Program-made: the position numbers and the translations under genes
Notes under the pieces: model-generated
What the model was told of the DNA's origin: nothing
Database searches by the model: none
What the model saw: the letters and a program-made list of their open reading frames with translations, nothing else
Source of the DNA: Planctomycetota bacterium
Lineage (GTDB): Bacteria; Planctomycetota; UBA1135; GCA-002686595
NCBI GenBank assembly: GCA_021413885.1
Contig: JAIOPM010000058.1
Span: 1-64,000, forward strand
Direction: 5' to 3'
DNA length: 64,000 nucleotides
Shown here: piece by piece, positions 7,962 to 15,249 of the stretch
Layout of the letters: each line of letters starts with the position of its first letter
Numbering within the stretch: position 1 is the first letter of the stretch

Positions 7962-8061
7962 TACGGAGCCAGGCTCGACTCGGCCGTTTTCGGCGGCCGA
8001 CGGCGTTTCCATCCCTCGTGCGCCCTCCGGCGAAAACGGCCGAGTCGAGCCTGGCTCCGTA
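7962..8061. repeat. Palindromic repeat, copy A
   Basis: Perfect 31-base inverted arms, 7962-7992 and 8031-8061, enclose a 38-base loop. The arm begins TACGGAGCCAGGCTCGACTC. Termini (TACSGAGYCAG) match the other copies in this window, but the inner arm differs from copies B-E while staying fully self-complementary. It lies between two convergent genes, four bases after the DUF1579 stop. Confidence 0.9.
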
Positions 8062-8068
8062 CTGTCAT

Positions 8069-9385
8069 CTACGACGGCTTCGCCTGGTAGAGCGCCCACA
8101 CCATGCCGACCTGCGCGTCCTGGAAGAGGCGCGTCGACACGTCGCGCAGCGTGCACGGCTCGAGGTTGACTCCCTTCGCGAGACGCTCGAGTGGATTGGC
8201 GCACGGGAACGGCGTCGTGGGCTCGTCGTTCTTCTGGCAACTGCACCACGCGAGATCGATCGCTCCGGTGATGCCGAACTTCTCGAGCGCTTGCCAATGC
8301 TCAGGGAGAGTGACGATCAAGATCGCCTCGTCGATCCAACCGACGACCTGACGGCGATCGAACGACGTGTTGCGCAGGAGCCGCACGGGATCGGCGAGCG
8401 AGAGCCCCGCGACGTCGGCGATGCCCTCTTCGCCGAGCCGCTCCGCGATCTCGGGCATGATCCCGCGCACGTCGGTCAACGGCACGCCGCGCGCGACCGC
8501 GTTCGCCGAGCTCATGTAGCCCGTCCGCTTGCGCACGTTCTCGAAGATCGTCTCGATGATGTAGCGCGGCGAGAAGCCCGCGACGAAGTGGACGGCGAGC
8601 AGCAGGCCGTCGACCGCGCTCGAGTTCTTCGCCGCGGCGACGGTCTTGCCCGCGTCGTCGCCCGCTGCCGCCGGAGTCGCGGCCGCGACGCTCTCGAGCC
8701 CGAGGCGCGTCAACAGGATCGCGAGCATCGGCCCGAGCACCAACGTGATCGCGCACCACAGCGCGACGCCGCTGGTGATGTCGCGTTGGAACGCGCGCTT
8801 GCCGAGCTGGAGCAGCGTGTAGCTGTACGCTCCCGCGAGCCCGATCCACGCCGCGTACTTCATGTCGTCGCCGAGCAGCGGGGTCTTCGTCTGCTGGAGC
8901 AGCAGCAGCCACGCGAGCGTTACCAACAGGATCAGCAGCGCCGGCAAGCCGTAGCGCAGCAGCAGCACGATCCCGTCGAATTCGCGGTCGACCGAGCTGA
9001 TCAAGGCCGGCCGGTACTGCTCCGCGAGCGCGTCGCCGCTCGAGAGCGGTGCCCGCTGCACGGGCTCGTCGTTCGTCTGCGCCGAAGAGCTCTCCTGCGA
9101 GCCCGCGAACGAAGTGAACGGCGACAGCCGGCTCGCTCGGTCGAGCAACTGCGACGCGCGCACCATGAACACGTACAGCGCGTGCTGCACGATGATCAAC
9201 GCGGGGAACAGCGCGGCGAGCCAACACCAACACGGCACCCGCTTGATCGGGCAGTCGCCGCCGCCGGGCATCACGCTCGCCCACACCACCCCGACCGCGG
9301 CGGCGAGCAACAGCAGCGCGATCAGGGTTTGCAGCACCTTCGAGAGCGGACTGGCTCCATCGCGGCCGTCGTCGGGGTTCGCCAT
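8069..9385 (-). CDS. Polytopic membrane protein with C-terminal helix-hairpin-helix-like region, function unknown
   Basis: 438 residues. Predicted membrane helices lie near 17-38, 54-75, 147-164, 178-196 and 205-226, with a weaker one near 257-275. Between helices 2 and 3 is a charged loop of about 70 residues. Residues about 308-356 (AERLGEEGIADVAGLSLADP and on) resemble a helix-hairpin-helix fold as found in DUF4332-type proteins. Four Cys in PIKRVPCWCW and CSCQKN could bind metal. I do not recognise the family. It is transcribed toward repeat A and is divergent from the topoisomerase gene. Confidence 0.65.
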   Translation of the reverse strand: MANPDDGRDGASPLSKVLQTLIALLLLAAAVGVVWASVMPGGGDCPIKRVPCWCWLAALFPALIIVQHALYVFMVRASQLLDRASRLSPFTSFAGSQESSSAQTNDEPVQRAPLSSGDALAEQYRPALISSVDREFDGIVLLLRYGLPALLILLVTLAWLLLLQQTKTPLLGDDMKYAAWIGLAGAYSYTLLQLGKRAFQRDITSGVALWCAITLVLGPMLAILLTRLGLESVAAATPAAAGDDAGKTVAAAKNSSAVDGLLLAVHFVAGFSPRYIIETIFENVRKRTGYMSSANAVARGVPLTDVRGIMPEIAERLGEEGIADVAGLSLADPVRLLRNTSFDRRQVVGWIDEAILIVTLPEHWQALEKFGITGAIDLAWCSCQKNDEPTTPFPCANPLERLAKGVNLEPCTLRDVSTRLFQDAQVGMVWALYQAKPS

Positions 9386-9509
9386 GGACTCCGAAAGGGG
9401 CGCGCCTCGAGCGATCGCACGCCGCCGCGCTCGCCGTTCCCGAATTCGTCCTGCGTTGGAAGGTCGTGAAGCTCGGCCACGCCGTGCTGGAGTCGCCGAT
9501 GCGAGTCCC

Positions 9510-9515
9510 TAGAAT
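9510..9515 (+). promoter_or_regulatory. -10 box of the topo VI A gene
   Basis: TAGAAT lies six bases before the ATG at 9522 and no Shine-Dalgarno site is present, so the message is probably leaderless. No clear -35 element is seen. Confidence 0.5.
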
Positions 9516-9521
9516 CCGCCC

Positions 9522-10673
9522 ATGGCGAAGAAAGACGAACCGATCAAGAAGGCTTCGAAGCCCCTGGACGAGCTCGATCGCAAGACGCTCGCGCTGATCG
9601 CGCGCACCGCCGATCAGGTGCGCCGCAAGATCGACGCGCGCAACCTGCCCGAGCTGCGGTTCCCGACGCGCTCGCTCGCCAACGTCAAGTACGAGTCGAA
9701 GATCGGCTACTTCGAGCTCGGCAAGGGGACGACGTCGCGCGCGCTCTCGGTCAACACGGTGAAGAGCTTCGCCCAGACCCTGCGCTTGATGTCGATCTCG
9801 AAGGAGATGGTCGAGAACAACGACTTCGCGACCAAGCGGGAGGCGTACTACGTCTCGAAGAACTGGGGCGACTGCAAGTTCAACGAGCAGGTCGAGTCGG
9901 ACACGGTGATGGACGACATCGAGGCGCTCGCGAGCCTCGATGGTTTGTCGCGCGAGCAACTGCGCTACTTCCCGGAGGAGCACGGCGGCTCGGTCGCCGG
10001 CGTCCTGACCGTGATCGACATCGATTCGGAGACGGGGAAGGAGCTCGCGATCGACTGCACGGCGTTCGGGTCGGGCTCGTACTCGATCCCCCACTCCGTC
10101 GAGCATTTGAAGTTCGAGACCAAGGCGAAGTTCATCCTCGCGATCGAAACCGGCGGCATGTTCCAGCGCCTGAACAACCACAAGTACTGGAAGACCGCGA
10201 ACTGCATCCTGGTCGAGACCGCCGGAGTTCCGACGCGCGCGACGCGTCGTTTCGTGCGACGGCTCGCCGACGACAAGAAGATCCCGGTCTACGCTTTCGT
10301 CGATTGCGATCCGTACGGCATCGCGAACATCTACCGGACGCTGAAGGTCGGCTCGGGCAACGCCGCGCACATCAATCGCTTCTTCTGTGTGCCCCAGGCC
10401 CAGTACCTGGGCGTGACGCCGCAAGACATCATCGACTTCAAGTTGCAGGACGCGACCCACAAGCTCCAGGAGGTCGACATCAAGCGCGCGAAGGATGCTT
10501 TGAAGAACGACCCCTTCTTCATCGCCCACAAGCCGTGGGTGAAGGCGCTCGAACAGATGCTGAAGATGGGCGTGCGCGCCGAACAGCAGGCTCTCGCGAA
10601 GTGGGGACTGAACTACGTGATCGAGGAGTACTTGCCCAAGAAGCTGGACAATCGGAAGGGCTTCTTGCCCTGA
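9522..10673 (+). CDS. top6A: DNA topoisomerase VI subunit A (Spo11-like)
   Basis: 383 residues, normal for the family. A winged-helix 5Y-CAP domain (about 70-145) carries the KREAYY motif with the predicted catalytic Tyr110. The Toprim domain follows, with Glu209 in ILAIETGG and the DCDPYG motif (Asp261, Asp263) for magnesium. All catalytic residues of a type IIB topoisomerase are therefore present. The enzyme normally acts as an A2B2 tetramer with an ATP-binding B subunit (GHKL) usually encoded next door; no top6B is in this window. The next gene starts only ten bases later. Confidence 0.9.
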   Translation: MAKKDEPIKKASKPLDELDRKTLALIARTADQVRRKIDARNLPELRFPTRSLANVKYESKIGYFELGKGTTSRALSVNTVKSFAQTLRLMSISKEMVENNDFATKREAYYVSKNWGDCKFNEQVESDTVMDDIEALASLDGLSREQLRYFPEEHGGSVAGVLTVIDIDSETGKELAIDCTAFGSGSYSIPHSVEHLKFETKAKFILAIETGGMFQRLNNHKYWKTANCILVETAGVPTRATRRFVRRLADDKKIPVYAFVDCDPYGIANIYRTLKVGSGNAAHINRFFCVPQAQYLGVTPQDIIDFKLQDATHKLQEVDIKRAKDALKNDPFFIAHKPWVKALEQMLKMGVRAEQQALAKWGLNYVIEEYLPKKLDNRKGFLP

Positions 10674-10683
10674 CGAAGTCGCC

Positions 10684-11124
10684 GTGCGACCGAGCGAAGT
10701 ACCGTCGATCCAGAAGCTGCCGCCGGAGGAACTCGTCGGGTGCCGCACCTCGGCGCGGTTCGTCGCGGCGAATCTCGATCATCTCATCGCGCTACTCTTG
10801 GGCGGGGCCGCCGCGATGCTGCTGAAGGACGGTGCGCAGCGCTACGTACTGGGAGCCGTCGTGTACGCCGCCTACTACTTCCTCCTCGAGGGACTCACCG
10901 GACGCACCATCGGCAAGTTCTCGCAGGGCTTGGTGGTGAAGCGCGTCGACGGCGGACGTGCAGGGTGGCGAGAGGCCGCATGTCGATCGCTGATCCGTCT
11001 GGTGGAAGTGAATCCGCTGCTGCTGGGCGGACTGCCCGCCGCGATCACAATCAACCATTCGGAGAAGCACCAACGCCTCGGCGACATGTGGGCCAGGACC
11101 GTGGTCATCGAGGATGACCGCTAG
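10684..11124 (+). CDS. RDD family membrane protein
   Basis: 146 residues from a GTG ten bases after the topo VI A stop. The RDD domain shows RFVAANLDHLIALLLGG near residue 21, helices about 30-48 and 54-70, the GRTIGKFSQGLVVKRVDGG motif near 75-95 and a final helix before SEKHQRLGDMWART, the usual C-terminal RDD signature. RDD proteins are small integral membrane proteins; some have been implicated in ion exchange, but no function can be assigned. Probably cotranscribed with the topoisomerase gene. Confidence 0.8.
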   Translation: MRPSEVPSIQKLPPEELVGCRTSARFVAANLDHLIALLLGGAAAMLLKDGAQRYVLGAVVYAAYYFLLEGLTGRTIGKFSQGLVVKRVDGGRAGWREAACRSLIRLVEVNPLLLGGLPAAITINHSEKHQRLGDMWARTVVIEDDR

Positions 11125-11160
11125 GCTGACGCGCGATCAGTGCTCCGGGAGTACGGGAGT

Positions 11161-11256
11161 ACCGAGCCAGCCTCAATTCCGCCGTTCTCGCGCGGTCTGG
11201 CTTGAGAGAGGTCCACCCTGAGTACACGAGAACGGCGGAGTTGAGGCTGGCTCGGT
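11161..11256. repeat. Palindromic repeat, copy B
   Basis: Arms 11161-11190 and 11227-11256 are complementary at 29 of 30 positions (the exception would be a G-U pair in RNA), around a 36-base loop. The stem can extend outward by CGGG/CCCG if three left-side bases bulge. It separates the RDD gene from a gene fragment that begins immediately after it. Confidence 0.9.
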
Positions 11257-11260
11257 CCCG

Positions 11261-11530
11261 TCGTGCGACGCCGCAGTGATCCACGTCGGCGCTGAGGTGC
11301 GTCTCATCGATGTGGAAGGCAGAGAGCAGGCAATGCTCAATCAGAACGTGCTGATCGAGATCGGCGCCGCGATGGCGCTGTATTGTCGCAAGTTCATTCT
11401 CCTAGTCGAGAACGGAACGGCGTTGCCGTCGAACTTGCAGGGCCTCTATGAAGTCAGGTACGACGGCGGCAAGCTCGACTACGACGCGACGATGAAACTC
11501 CTCAAGGCGTTCAATGACTTTCGAGCGTAG
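11261..11530 (+). pseudogene. 3' fragment of a TIR-like nucleotide-binding domain gene
   Basis: The frame encodes about 89 residues after the repeat; a GTG at 11276 would give 84 residues. The stretch NQNVLIEIGAAMALYCRKFI followed by LLVENGTALPSNLQGLYEVRY matches the C-terminal half of TIR-like domains (PF10137/CAP12 type), which in complete proteins have a N-terminal half carrying the rest of the fold. That half is absent: coding similarity seems to start within a few bases of the right end of copy B, and four bases after the stop copy C begins. I read it as a truncated defence-type gene, though a short expressed protein cannot be excluded. Confidence 0.6.
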
Positions 11531-11534
11531 TCAG

Positions 11535-11639
11535 GAGTACGGAGCCAGCCTCAACTCGGCCGTTCTCGCGCGCCTAGAGCTGCCCGCCGTTCGGTGCACA
11601 CCGAGCGAGAACGGCGGAGTTGAGGCTGGCTCGGTACTC
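11535..11639. repeat. Palindromic repeat, copy C
   Basis: Arms 11535-11569 and 11605-11639 (35 bases) match at 33 positions around a 35-base loop. Outer ends read GAGTAC/GTACTC. The inner arm is nearly identical to copies B and E. It follows the TIR-like fragment by four bases. Confidence 0.9.
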
Positions 11640-11747
11640 GGATTTGAGCTCGATGTAGCGGAGCATCGAGCGAGCAGTTTACCCTTCCACGCATTCGTCG
11701 GCGCTCATCACCTACTTCGCCCCGCACCGCGCGGCGAGCGGGCGAAG

Positions 11748-11778
11748 GAGTACCGAGCCAGCCTCAACTCCGCTCTCG
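11748..11778. repeat. Solitary arm of the palindromic repeat, copy D
   Basis: The sequence GAGTACCGAGCCAGCCTCAA and the following bases equal one arm of copy C except for a three-base deletion, but no inverted partner occurs nearby. It is either a decayed element or a half-copy, and it ends 40 bases before the ankyrin gene. The 108 bases between copies C and D show no gene or recognisable signal. Confidence 0.75.
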
Positions 11779-11817
11779 TGAAGCCCGAAGTGAAACGGGC
11801 AAAGTATGCTGGGCGAG

Positions 11818-12648
11818 ATGGACCAGGTCAGCGAGTTCTGCGAAGCCGTCTGGCGCGAAAACACGCTCGAGATCGCGCGCCTCATCCCGCAGATTGATCC
11901 GAACGCCGAGGACCGCTGGCACCGAAGACCGCTGTCGATGGCCGCGCAGTACGGCGACGCACGGCTGGTACGCGAGCTCCTCGACCGGGGTGCCGAAGTG
12001 GACGCGGGGCGTTCGCAGCTCACGCCGATCGCCCATGCAGCGGCGCGCGGGGCGCACGAGATCGTGGAGCTTCTCCGGAGCGCGGGCGCCGTGATCTCTG
12101 TCGTGACTTCCGTGTATCTCGGCGATCGCCGTGCAGTTGCCGAAGCAGATCTCGTCGTCGATGAGGAGGGCACACCGCTGCTCCTGCACGCTGCCCAGTC
12201 ACTCGACGCACAGATCGTTGGAGACCTCCTCGATGGTGGGGCGAACACCGCCGCGACCGATCGATTCGGCGAGACGGCGCTTCATCGCGTCGCCGACCTG
12301 CGGCGCACCGACGGTCCGAAGGCTGGGCGTGTCGCGAGGCTACTCATCGAGCGCGGCGCGCTCGTCGATGCGTGCAACCGGGACGGCGTCACAGCGCTTC
12401 ATCAGGCAGTGCGCGCGCGGAATCTCGCCGTCGTGGAAGTCTTGCTCGACCGCGGGGCGAACCTGAACGCCGCGGACAAGCGCGGCTCGACGCCGCTTCA
12501 TCGCGCTTCCTCATCGACGGGCGCGGGCAACACCGTCGGCATCGACCCAGCTCCGTTCGTCGACCTACTTCTGGCGCGTGGCGCGGACCCGAAGCAGAAG
12601 GACAAGCGCGGCCGAGTCGCGTGGTGCGCGCGCGACGCCGGACGATGA
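11818..12648 (+). CDS. Ankyrin-repeat protein
   Basis: 276 residues from the ATG at 11818; an ATG at 11806 is in frame, but a TATGCT box (11805-11810) seven bases before 11818 favours a leaderless start there. Six to seven ankyrin repeats fill the chain, for example RPLSMAAQYGDARLVRELLD, TPLLLHAAQSLDAQIVGDLL, TALHQAVRARNLAVVEVLLD and TPLHRASSS near the C-terminus. There is no signal peptide or catalytic domain, so a cytoplasmic protein-binding role is expected. It is framed by palindromic repeats (C and D before, E after) and is followed by no partner gene that would explain its target. Confidence 0.85.
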   Translation: MDQVSEFCEAVWRENTLEIARLIPQIDPNAEDRWHRRPLSMAAQYGDARLVRELLDRGAEVDAGRSQLTPIAHAAARGAHEIVELLRSAGAVISVVTSVYLGDRRAVAEADLVVDEEGTPLLLHAAQSLDAQIVGDLLDGGANTAATDRFGETALHRVADLRRTDGPKAGRVARLLIERGALVDACNRDGVTALHQAVRARNLAVVEVLLDRGANLNAADKRGSTPLHRASSSTGAGNTVGIDPAPFVDLLLARGADPKQKDKRGRVAWCARDAGR

Positions 12649-12675
12649 CGCTCGGTGGGTACTGAGCTAGATGGG

Positions 12676-12773
12676 TACGGAGCCAGCCTCAACTCCGTCG
12701 TTCTCCCGCGGTGAGCAACGGGGAAAGTCAGCGCTGGGCGCGCGAGAACGGCGGAGTTGAGGCTGGCTCCGTA
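12676..12773. repeat. Palindromic repeat, copy E
   Basis: Arms 12676-12710 and 12739-12773 (35 bases) match at 33 positions around a 28-base loop. It stands 27 bases after the ankyrin stop and ends in the possible upstream start region of the DUF1801 gene. Confidence 0.9.
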
Positions 12774-12847
12774 TGTTCCGTACGTTGGACACCGTCACGC
12801 TCGGCGAGTACGGTGCGGAGCATGTTCGACCAAGAAGAGGTCTGCGC

Positions 12848-13327
12848 GTGACGAACCCCGAAACGCTGCTCGCGAGCTACTTCGCGAAGTACGTGCCGGC
12901 GATGGTCAAGCTCGGCAAGGCGCTGCGCGCGAAGGTGCGTGCTCGGCTGCCCGGTCTGAACGAGCTCGTCTACGTCTACGAGAACCAGCAGTCGCTCGTG
13001 ATCTCGTATTCGCCGACCGAGCACGGCCATGAAGGGCTGTGCTCGATCGCGCTGTACCCGCGCGAGGTGAGGCTGTACTTCGCGAAGGGCGCGCTGCTGT
13101 CGAAGTCGGATCCAAACAAGCTGCTCCAAGGCAGTGCCTCGGTGCGTTACGTCGTGCTGAGCTCGGCGGCGGACTTCGACCGCGCCGAAATCGAAGGGCT
13201 GATGGCGGCTACGTTGAAGCTCGCGAAGGTGCGCCTCGATCCGAACGCGAAGGGCTCGGTGATCATCAGAGCGGAGGCGCAGAAGGAGCGCGCGCGCCGC
13301 GCCAAGAAGGCGAAAGCCCGGGGCTGA
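12848..13327 (+). CDS. DUF1801 domain protein
   Basis: 159 residues from a GTG at 12848 preceded by an AGAAGAGG Shine-Dalgarno-like site; an ATG at 12773 would add 25 residues but begins inside the last base of repeat E and reads low-complexity sequence. The body, with RLPGLNELVYVYENQQSLVI, SIALYPREVRLYFAKGALL and LLQGSASVRYVVLSS, matches the DUF1801 (YdhG-like) fold of unknown function. The C-terminal tail is Arg/Lys/Ala-rich and could bind nucleic acid. It is the last gene of the repeat-punctuated block and converges on a secreted protein gene. Confidence 0.75.
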   Translation: MTNPETLLASYFAKYVPAMVKLGKALRAKVRARLPGLNELVYVYENQQSLVISYSPTEHGHEGLCSIALYPREVRLYFAKGALLSKSDPNKLLQGSASVRYVVLSSAADFDRAEIEGLMAATLKLAKVRLDPNAKGSVIIRAEAQKERARRAKKAKARG

Positions 13328-13337
13328 TCGACTCACG

Positions 13338-14975
13338 TCACGGTCCGACGGTGTACTCGAGTCCGTCGCTCAACTGGGTATTGTTCGGAGCGGGGAAACC
13401 GGAATCACGTCCCCACCACTGGCAGTCGACCGTCGTGCCGACCGCGGTCAATGCGGCCGGAGACGAGCCGTCGAGTCCGCCGACCGAGAACAAATTCATG
13501 TCGATGCTCGGCGCGCCGGAACAGTCGTTGGGCGGAGGATTGCCGGCTGTGTTGGAGACCGGCGTGCGCTTGATCGGCGGATTGACGCAGAGCAAGCCGC
13601 CTTGGAACGGCAAGTTGGCCGGCCCGCGGACGCCGTAGAAGAGGAGGCACGCCTTGTTGTTGAGCATCCCTGTCGCGCTGACGAGGAAGCCGCTTCCGGC
13701 CGTCGCCGACGGAGTCCCGGTCCAACCGATCACCGGCGCGCAGCCGATCGAATTCGACTTCGCGGTGCAGTAGCGGGTGGCGCTGGAGACGCAGCGGCTC
13801 ACTCCCGAATACAGTCCGCCGGTGACGACGTCACCGGCCCACGCATCGAGGTACCCGTCGCCATTGGTGTCGGCAAGCAGCACGGAATAGCACTGGATCG
13901 AAGCGGGCACGCTCGCGGTGAAGGCGAAGTGCCCGGTCGAGTCGTTCGAGACCAGGCGGATCGCGCTGGCGGAGCCGGAGGTCGCGAGCAAGTCGAGGTC
14001 GCCATCGAGATCGAGGTCGCCGACGGCAATCCCCTTCACGTAGCTGCCGACGCCGACACTTTGCGCGATCGTGAACCCGCCGACTCCGTCGTTCATGCGG
14101 ATCGAAAGCCAGTACTTGAAGCCGGTCGCGAGATCGACGTCACCGTCGCCGTCGAAGTCGCCCGAGGCGAGGCCGCCCGCGTAGATGCCGGCGGAGAAGC
14201 TCGAACCGTTGCTCACGAAAGTTCCGTCGCCCAGGCCGGACGCGATGCTCACCGTCGACGTGGCGGACGAGACACCACCGAGCGTCGCGACGTCGACGTG
14301 ACCGTCACCATTGAAGTCCGCGAGCGTGATGTCGGCAGCGTGCAACGCGAGTTCATTGGTCGGCAGCGGTTGGAAGCCGCCCGTGCCGTCGCCGAGCGCG
14401 ATCCACAGACCGCCCGTGGAGCCGACCGGGAGCTGGTGACTTTTCAGACCGAGCACTGCGTCGATCCGTCCGTCCTCGTTCACGTCCGACAACAGCACCT
14501 TGACCGGCGCGCTGTCACCCGCGGGGAACCCGAACGTCGCCGCCGTCGTGTAGTTTCCGGCGCCGTCGTTGCGCAGCCAGCTCATCCCGCTGCTGAAGCC
14601 GATCACGAGGTCGAGGTCGCCATCCGAGTCGACGTCGCCCAGGGCGAGAACGCTCGGCGAAACACCGGGATGGAACGTCGTCTGGGAGAACCCGAGGTCG
14701 CCGTAGTTCGCGAGCACATGGATCATGTTCCCGTCGACGCTCAGTACGTCTAGGTCGCCGTCGAGATCGATATCGCCCGCGACCAGATCGAGCACCGCCG
14801 TTCCGGCGGACTGCGCGGTGGGGACGTACTCCATGGAGAGGCACTGGGCGTCGGCCGTGCGCGCGACGAGTGCGAGGCCGAAGAGTGCACCACCCGCGAT
14901 CACAGATTTCCGACGCGGGCATACACCGCGGCTCGCGGAACGACGCCCGGTCGAGGTAACGGAGGAGATCTTCAT
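13338..14975 (-). CDS. Secreted FG-GAP/VCBS repeat protein
   Basis: 545 residues from the ATG at 14975, which places a Arg-rich signal peptide (RRKSVIAGGALFGLALVART and cleavage near ADAQ) at the N-terminus; an upstream ATG at 15071 would bury it. Seven FG-GAP-like blocks with calcium-binding DxDxDG loops follow, such as GDIDLDGDLDVLSV, GDVDSDGDLDLVIG, ADFNGDGHVDVATL and ADTNGDGYLDAW, suggesting an extracellular seven-bladed propeller. The C-terminal 150 residues start with RYCTAKSNSIGCAP and contain AGSGFLVSATG and FQGGLLCVNPPI, a domain I associate with many secreted planctomycetal proteins. Probably a surface or secreted adhesive protein. Confidence 0.8.
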   Translation of the reverse strand: MKISSVTSTGRRSASRGVCPRRKSVIAGGALFGLALVARTADAQCLSMEYVPTAQSAGTAVLDLVAGDIDLDGDLDVLSVDGNMIHVLANYGDLGFSQTTFHPGVSPSVLALGDVDSDGDLDLVIGFSSGMSWLRNDGAGNYTTAATFGFPAGDSAPVKVLLSDVNEDGRIDAVLGLKSHQLPVGSTGGLWIALGDGTGGFQPLPTNELALHAADITLADFNGDGHVDVATLGGVSSATSTVSIASGLGDGTFVSNGSSFSAGIYAGGLASGDFDGDGDVDLATGFKYWLSIRMNDGVGGFTIAQSVGVGSYVKGIAVGDLDLDGDLDLLATSGSASAIRLVSNDSTGHFAFTASVPASIQCYSVLLADTNGDGYLDAWAGDVVTGGLYSGVSRCVSSATRYCTAKSNSIGCAPVIGWTGTPSATAGSGFLVSATGMLNNKACLLFYGVRGPANLPFQGGLLCVNPPIKRTPVSNTAGNPPPNDCSGAPSIDMNLFSVGGLDGSSPAALTAVGTTVDCQWWGRDSGFPAPNNTQLSDGLEYTVGP

Positions 14976-15132
14976 GGTGGGGAGCTTCTTGTTCGTCGTC
15001 TCTTGGGCTGCGCGAATCGCGCGTGGCTCCTGATAGGGTGCGCACGCCGGCCAAGCAGTACAGACAAGCACGCAGTCGGCGGACGAGTTGTGCGCAGCTC
15101 GAAGTACCCCGGTGCCGTGACGCGATGACGAG

Positions 15133-15249
15133 GTACCGAGTCAGGTATCTTTCCACCGGGTAGACCGCGACACGCCCGCTCACCTCGGTTGCTCTGCGTC
15201 ACCCGCGCCCAAGACGTGCAACCCGGTGGAAAGACACCTGACTCGGTAC
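15133..15249. repeat. Palindromic repeat, copy F (divergent core)
   Basis: Arms 15133-15161 and 15221-15249 (29 bases) match at 28 positions around a 59-base loop. The outer GTACCGAGTCAG matches the family ends, but the inner arm (GTATCTTTCCACCGGGT) is unrelated to the other copies and yet self-complementary. It is the main content of the 310-base gene-free stretch 14976-15285; I saw nothing else there except a possible TATCCT -10 box at 15260-15265 for the downstream gene. Confidence 0.85.

Follow-up and report, generated by a model that had tools for sequence, protein, structure and literature searches.

REPIN-like palindromes in a planctomycete genome are very probably moved in trans by cognate RAYT transposases

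The palindromes that punctuate a gene block in this planctomycete genome are very probably non-autonomous REPIN-like elements of about 100 bp, which represent the end arms of a larger RAYT/TIRYT element and are moved in trans by the cognate RAYT. The initial annotation of the window (the whole stretch of 64,000 nucleotides that was analysed) had listed a MITE or REP-like family among several options for these repeats, and this option is now supported by the linkage of a RAYT gene to both palindrome families. Movement of the palindromes by the RAYT is what we infer from comparison of sequences. In the proposed scheme, a palindrome would correspond to both end arms of a larger element, and the middle part of this element would hold the gene for the RAYT/TIRYT, a transposase of the HUH single-tyrosine type in the IS200/IS605 superfamily. 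The transposase would use the GTACSGAGYCAG ends to recognise the palindrome in its folded, single-stranded form and would copy or move it in trans, mostly over short distances, and insertions would persist in the short spacers that follow stop codons, where harm is small. As a rule no target-site duplication would remain, and in some lineages the inserted palindrome would be lengthened by an inverted copy of adjacent host DNA. Such lengthening would most likely arise by fold-back of a 3' end in one arm, which would serve as primer for synthesis along the other arm's flank before it rejoins the target.

All six copies previously described in the window, five of them two-armed and one a single arm, were confirmed at their places (Table 1). 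When one mismatch or none was allowed, the motif TACSGAGYCAG was found 11 times in the window, where 2.0 occurrences would be expected, and none of 100 shuffles reached 11. The copies fall into two families that have only their termini in common (TACCGAGTCAGGT..TTTCCACCGGGT): family 1 comprises A to E and reads TACGGAGCCAGCCTC..., and family 2 is represented by F. The arms of A, C, E and F are 29-38 nt long and 92-97% complementary. Palindrome B is more degenerate, with longer arms of 45 nt that are 82% complementary and a right end that reads GACCGAG, not TACCGAG. Palindrome A has convergent stop codons on both sides, 3 and 7 nt away. A search of Rfam returned no match for the palindromes.

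Table 1. Palindromes and neighbouring genes in the window.
Feature	Position	Strand	Remarks
Palindrome A, family 1 (TACGGAGCCAG...)	7962..8061	.	35-nt arms, 97% complementary
Palindrome B, family 1, right terminus degenerate	11160..11257	.	
84-aa fragment, C-terminal part only of a CAP12/Pycsar TIR domain	11276..11530	+	profile positions 70-118 of 119
Palindrome C, family 1	11538..11636	.	stop codon 7 nt before
Single arm D, family 1	11748..11773	.	26 nt, perfect complement of the right arm of C
Ankyrin-repeat protein	11806..12648	+	between D and E; bystander
Palindrome E, family 1	12676..12773	.	neighbour C is the closest relative
DUF1801-like protein	12848..13327	+	after E; Pfam match under the curated cut-off; bystander
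Palindrome F, family 2 (TACCGAGTCAGG..CCACCGGG)	15134..15248	.	cognate transposase is RAYT2, contig C4

The whole genome (4.74 Mb in 62 contigs, 87.6% complete) holds about 37 palindrome sites of the two families. Genome-wide counts were obtained by pattern searches, in which the terminal motif gave 71 exact matches, compared with 5 for a reversed control, and 32 two-ended copies formed the set for detailed analysis. The genomes used here are fragmented assemblies, with breaks that tend to fall at these repeats. Whole copies consist of two inverted repeats and a spacer, which form one long hairpin, and are dispersed in intergenic DNA. Their terminal consensus is GTACSGAGYCAG, with a G at position -1 in 56 of the 64 ends. 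Over 30 positions, the two arms of a copy differ by 0.53 on average, far below the 3.8 differences found between the left arms of different copies, and therefore the two arms change together. The GTAG (GTRG) head of REPs was not found at the foot of the repeat, which ends in GTAC; the GGGGWSAS motif was not found in the arms, which read RTACSGWGYC...; and single arms, considered as self-palindromes, gave no more stable folds than arms that had been shuffled (-8.3 versus -10.1 kcal/mol). Nested palindromes were also observed (L048:5807-5941; L200, L201, L202), with an outer arm of 17-26 nt that carries the same terminus on both sides of a full element.

The initial annotation had pointed to linked RAYT genes as a way to identify the mover of the palindromes, and the genome-wide search found one for each family. 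A Pfam search of the genome returned one Y1_Tnp gene (RAYT1), located 146 bp from a half palindrome. RAYT1 (363 aa, L034:4174-5265) lies exactly between both arms of a family-1 palindrome, flanked by ACGGAGCCAGCCTCGACTCGGCCGTTTTCG and its exact inverted copy. A second gene, RAYT2 (contig C4:113-1090), was found by protein search; it is 50% identical to RAYT1 and is flanked by CGAGACAGGTGACATTCCACCGGGTTTCC and an inverted near-copy, which are the two arms of a family-2 palindrome. The arms of both genes match dispersed palindromes of their own genome. RAYT1 has a Y1_Tnp match above the cut-off and scored 54.8 bits against the NCBIfam REP-transposase model, under the curated cut-off of 80. Both RAYT1 and RAYT2, like nearly every homologue in the alignment, have an HUH motif (THFHLL) and a tyrosine motif (Y...NP). 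Although phmmer gave no match in the PDB, a structure predicted for a homologue with 62% identity has 4er8, a RAYT crystallised with a REP hairpin, as its top PDB match by structure comparison (E 2.7e-5), and IS200/IS608 transposases are among the next matches. The same homologue is predicted to have a long helical C-terminal region; no Bac_DnaA_C, HTH_23 or HTH_28 Pfam match was found.

The association between RAYTs and palindromes was also seen across the order. The survey covered 48 RAYT homologues of this and other families in the order. Inverted arms (score of at least 14) enclose 37 of them, compared with none of 78 control genes of similar size, and TAC.G.GYC-like termini were found at 30 of the 48. 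When the arm interiors were compared with host palindromes in ten RAYT/genome pairings, with few dispersed palindromes sampled per genome, the matches summed to 141 of 170, against a permutation mean of 86 and maximum of 138, and no such matching arose by chance in 20,000 permutations. The exceptions were two of the ten pairings (G046 and G056), in which the arms of the tested RAYT were unlike the sampled palindromes of the host. Motif copies are more numerous in genomes with a RAYT than in those without (median of 13 versus 3, p ~1e-5, uncorrected for ancestry). In this genus, RAYTs occur together with matching palindromes in G000 and G036. Both are lacking in the congeners G035 and G037, where the motif matched just 3 times and once and neither RAYT nor Y1_Tnp gave a match. 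G006, G010 and G003 have many motif matches, yet no RAYT or Y1_Tnp match was found in them; these assemblies are fragmented, which does not explain the absence away. The neighbourhood of RAYT1 differs from the RAYT loci of G036, G040 and G042, therefore whole elements change place. The highest copy number of the family was found in G042, with 293 motif matches and two good RAYT homologues. In the two-contig genome G005, a RAYT gene (L072) is located between inverted repeats of more than 100 nt, which are themselves palindromic and unlike the others.

These observations also bear on whether the palindromes could be a MITE family of an unrelated DDE transposase, with the RAYT genes merely inserted in palindrome loops. 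The shape of the copies, with their terminal inverted repeats, is MITE-like, and the whole-genome transposase search was confined to Y1_Tnp/RAYT genes. Nevertheless, such an origin is extremely improbable, since in this one genome there is a separate matching RAYT for each of the two families and the same bracketing recurs over the 48 RAYT loci in several families. In addition, DDE elements normally leave target duplications, and these are absent as a rule: no target-site duplication of at least 4 nt was found directly at the element ends in 32 copies of this genome and 38 related copies.

The palindromes had also been compared to the boundaries of integron-like cassettes, where a recombinase would exchange single genes between them. 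The layout behind this idea is real, as between 11.2 and 13.3 kb imperfect palindromes do alternate with single same-strand genes, similarly to integron cassettes, and pairs of palindromes 1.5-3 kb apart are found elsewhere in the genome. Different genes are also found in congeners between the topoisomerase VI A gene and the 15.3-kb gene, and no such hairpins were found in congeners at this locus. However, at three other sites with two or three palindromes, the genes between them have kept their neighbours in congeners that have no palindromes there, as expected from vertical inheritance, and neighbouring copies are closely related, often in opposite orientation. The reported absence of the canonical attC core was confirmed, as a search of the five two-armed copies and their surroundings gave no RYYYAAC, and a single GTTRRRY match just outside E. 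Since gene order at the three loci is kept in congeners without palindromes, the genes enclosed there are not cassettes, and we consider cassette exchange highly improbable. Composite elements carrying the enclosed gene were ruled out by the same synteny.

Since congeners hold other genes there, the stretch from 11.1 to 13.3 kb is an ordinary accessory block, and its accessory character is not general for palindrome sites. The TIR fragment is placed between B and C, where a gene of the CAP12/Pycsar effector type has been cut down to its C-terminal part directly after B, and it is possible that it is the remnant of a defence gene. Homologues of the DUF1801-like gene (12786-13309) with about 78% DNA identity were found in the congeners G036 and G035, where they adjoin a gene conserved between these two; because they stand at other loci, this gene has moved in one lineage. 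The topoisomerase VI subunit A (Spo11-like) gene, at 9522-10673, is well conserved in congeners and is the stable left edge of the variable block.

Placement of the 32 copies was determined with a simple codon-usage gene caller. A stop codon lies within 30 nt of 23 copies and within 10 nt of 18, the latter compared with 10% of random intergenic positions, and the copies occupy 11 convergent, 14 codirectional and 6 divergent spacers, with one copy inside a called gene. Host transcription terminators or mRNA 3'-end stabilisers, alike by chance, could produce such proximity to stop codons and the use of convergent spacers, and the predicted RNA hairpins are very stable, with a mean of -83 kcal/mol. 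Even so, this explanation is very unlikely, as the same spacers in congeners have no hairpins, six of the copies lie between divergent genes, a T-run follows only 1 of the 64 ends, and neither the sequence family nor the RAYT linkage would be explained. What can be retained of the earlier suggestion of terminator-like boundaries is a possible side effect of copies that sit near stop codons; as a description of the elements themselves, it does not agree with the missing T-runs and the relatives without hairpins. The copies are clustered, with 16 gaps shorter than 3.2 kb between them where 0.9 were expected, and the closest relative is the neighbouring copy, in either orientation, for 9 of 22 copies (0.95 expected). 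This suggests short-range hopping of the copies, and the punctuated look of the block would therefore reflect local hopping of the REPIN-like elements. Insertion by replacement of the native spacer was ruled out, since spacers from which the element is removed are not shorter than element-free ones.

The elements resemble more than one known system. TIRtrons and TIRYT transposases were described by Di Nocera et al. 2013 (PMC3733652), and they share with the elements described here a long-type RAYT-like HUH/Y1 gene between long terminal inverted repeats that have no relation to GTAG REPs, dispersed repeat families of moderate abundance, inverted dimers included, and repeat-specific transposases. 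Unlike TIRtrons, the termini here read GTACSGAGYCAG and not GGGGWSAS, a repeat motif that is present in some TIRtrons only (PMC3733652), the dispersed copies are mostly whole inverted pairs, and matching between arms and hosts was tested across genomes. A 2018 study (PMC6006769) placed most TIRYTs in subclass 2.1 and reported no REP-like sequences near subclass 2.1 genes. By resemblance, the RAYTs described here probably belong to this subclass, but they do have REP-like partners. REPINs (Bertels and Rainey 2011, PMC3116915) and the RAYTs bracketed by REPs (PMC2817692) are similar in that a hairpin of about 100 bp is made of two inverted repeats and a spacer, is mostly intergenic, shows compensatory changes in its arms and has a cognate HUH transposase whose gene stands between the same repeats. 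In contrast to REPINs, there is no GTAG head here, where ends are GTAC, an arm on its own is not a palindrome, copies show strong clustering with close kin as neighbours, and inverted host flanks occur. Because they seem to work like REPINs without the GTAG head and the self-palindromic repeat, the palindromes are filed as REPIN-like progeny of TIRYT-type RAYTs. For the long RAYT class, which the genes described here resemble, earlier work had reported no REP-like partners. In this order of Planctomycetota, independent pairs of transposase and palindrome with readable ends are numerous, two of them in one genome, thus the rules of recognition can be read from sequence and are testable, which bears on how RAYTs spread REP-like palindromes.

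In G000 the flanks of the palindromes are mutually inverted over about 8 nt, which is beyond chance, as none of 2000 shuffles reproduced it, and the inversion is stronger in G006, where 13 of 14 longer loci have inverted flanks over 6-62 nt. Inverted flanks are nearly absent in G036 and G038, therefore the pooled flank test is driven by G006. Some outer layers in G006 hold degenerate copies of the terminus, and nesting also contributes to the symmetry of the flanks in this genome. Among congeners of G000 no clean empty site could be aligned, as intergenic DNA is too diverged, and a true, near-identical empty allele was found in another genus, in G010 (C42, L218/L224), opposite a filled one in G006 (C88, L214:1300-1560), with flanking genes 95-96% identical. 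The empty allele reads ...GCGCCTGCTGGCCTGACGCG-GCGAGCGC... between both neighbouring genes. In the filled allele the palindrome follows ...GCGCCTGCTGGCCTGACGCG, and on its far side stands CGCGTCAGGCCAGCAGGCGC, a 20-nt inverted copy of the 3' end of the adjacent gene, stop codon included, followed by five filler bases, GACGCG again and then the right gene. Since the gene end is found without the inverted copy in G010, and in diverged forms in G007, G008, G009 and G011, the inverted copy is the new part at this locus.

At this one site, fold-back synthesis with a return at the GACGCG microhomology would fit the arrangement. The pair of alleles gives a first look at the effect of insertion on its target, which is a backward host copy and not a simple duplication. 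It is conceivable, and we suggest it only tentatively, that insertion or early replication routinely places a backward copy of neighbouring host DNA on the other side of the palindrome through fold-back priming, by which palindromes would grow and capture host sequence, gene ends with their stop codons included. Small spacers would also gain perfect hairpins and new gene ends from such events. From the limited literature known to us, we are aware of no report of inverted host-flank copies for REPINs, and backward copying of host DNA, if true, would be a side product of single-strand transposition of the RAYT type that had so far gone unreported. An assembly fold-back artefact is an unlikely source of the inverted flanks, because the symmetry breaks off abruptly at 6-62 nt, and each contig then runs on into different genes. 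One convergent spacer in G006 (C119, L203:1812-1996) is, from stop codon to stop codon, a single perfect palindrome except for its loop.
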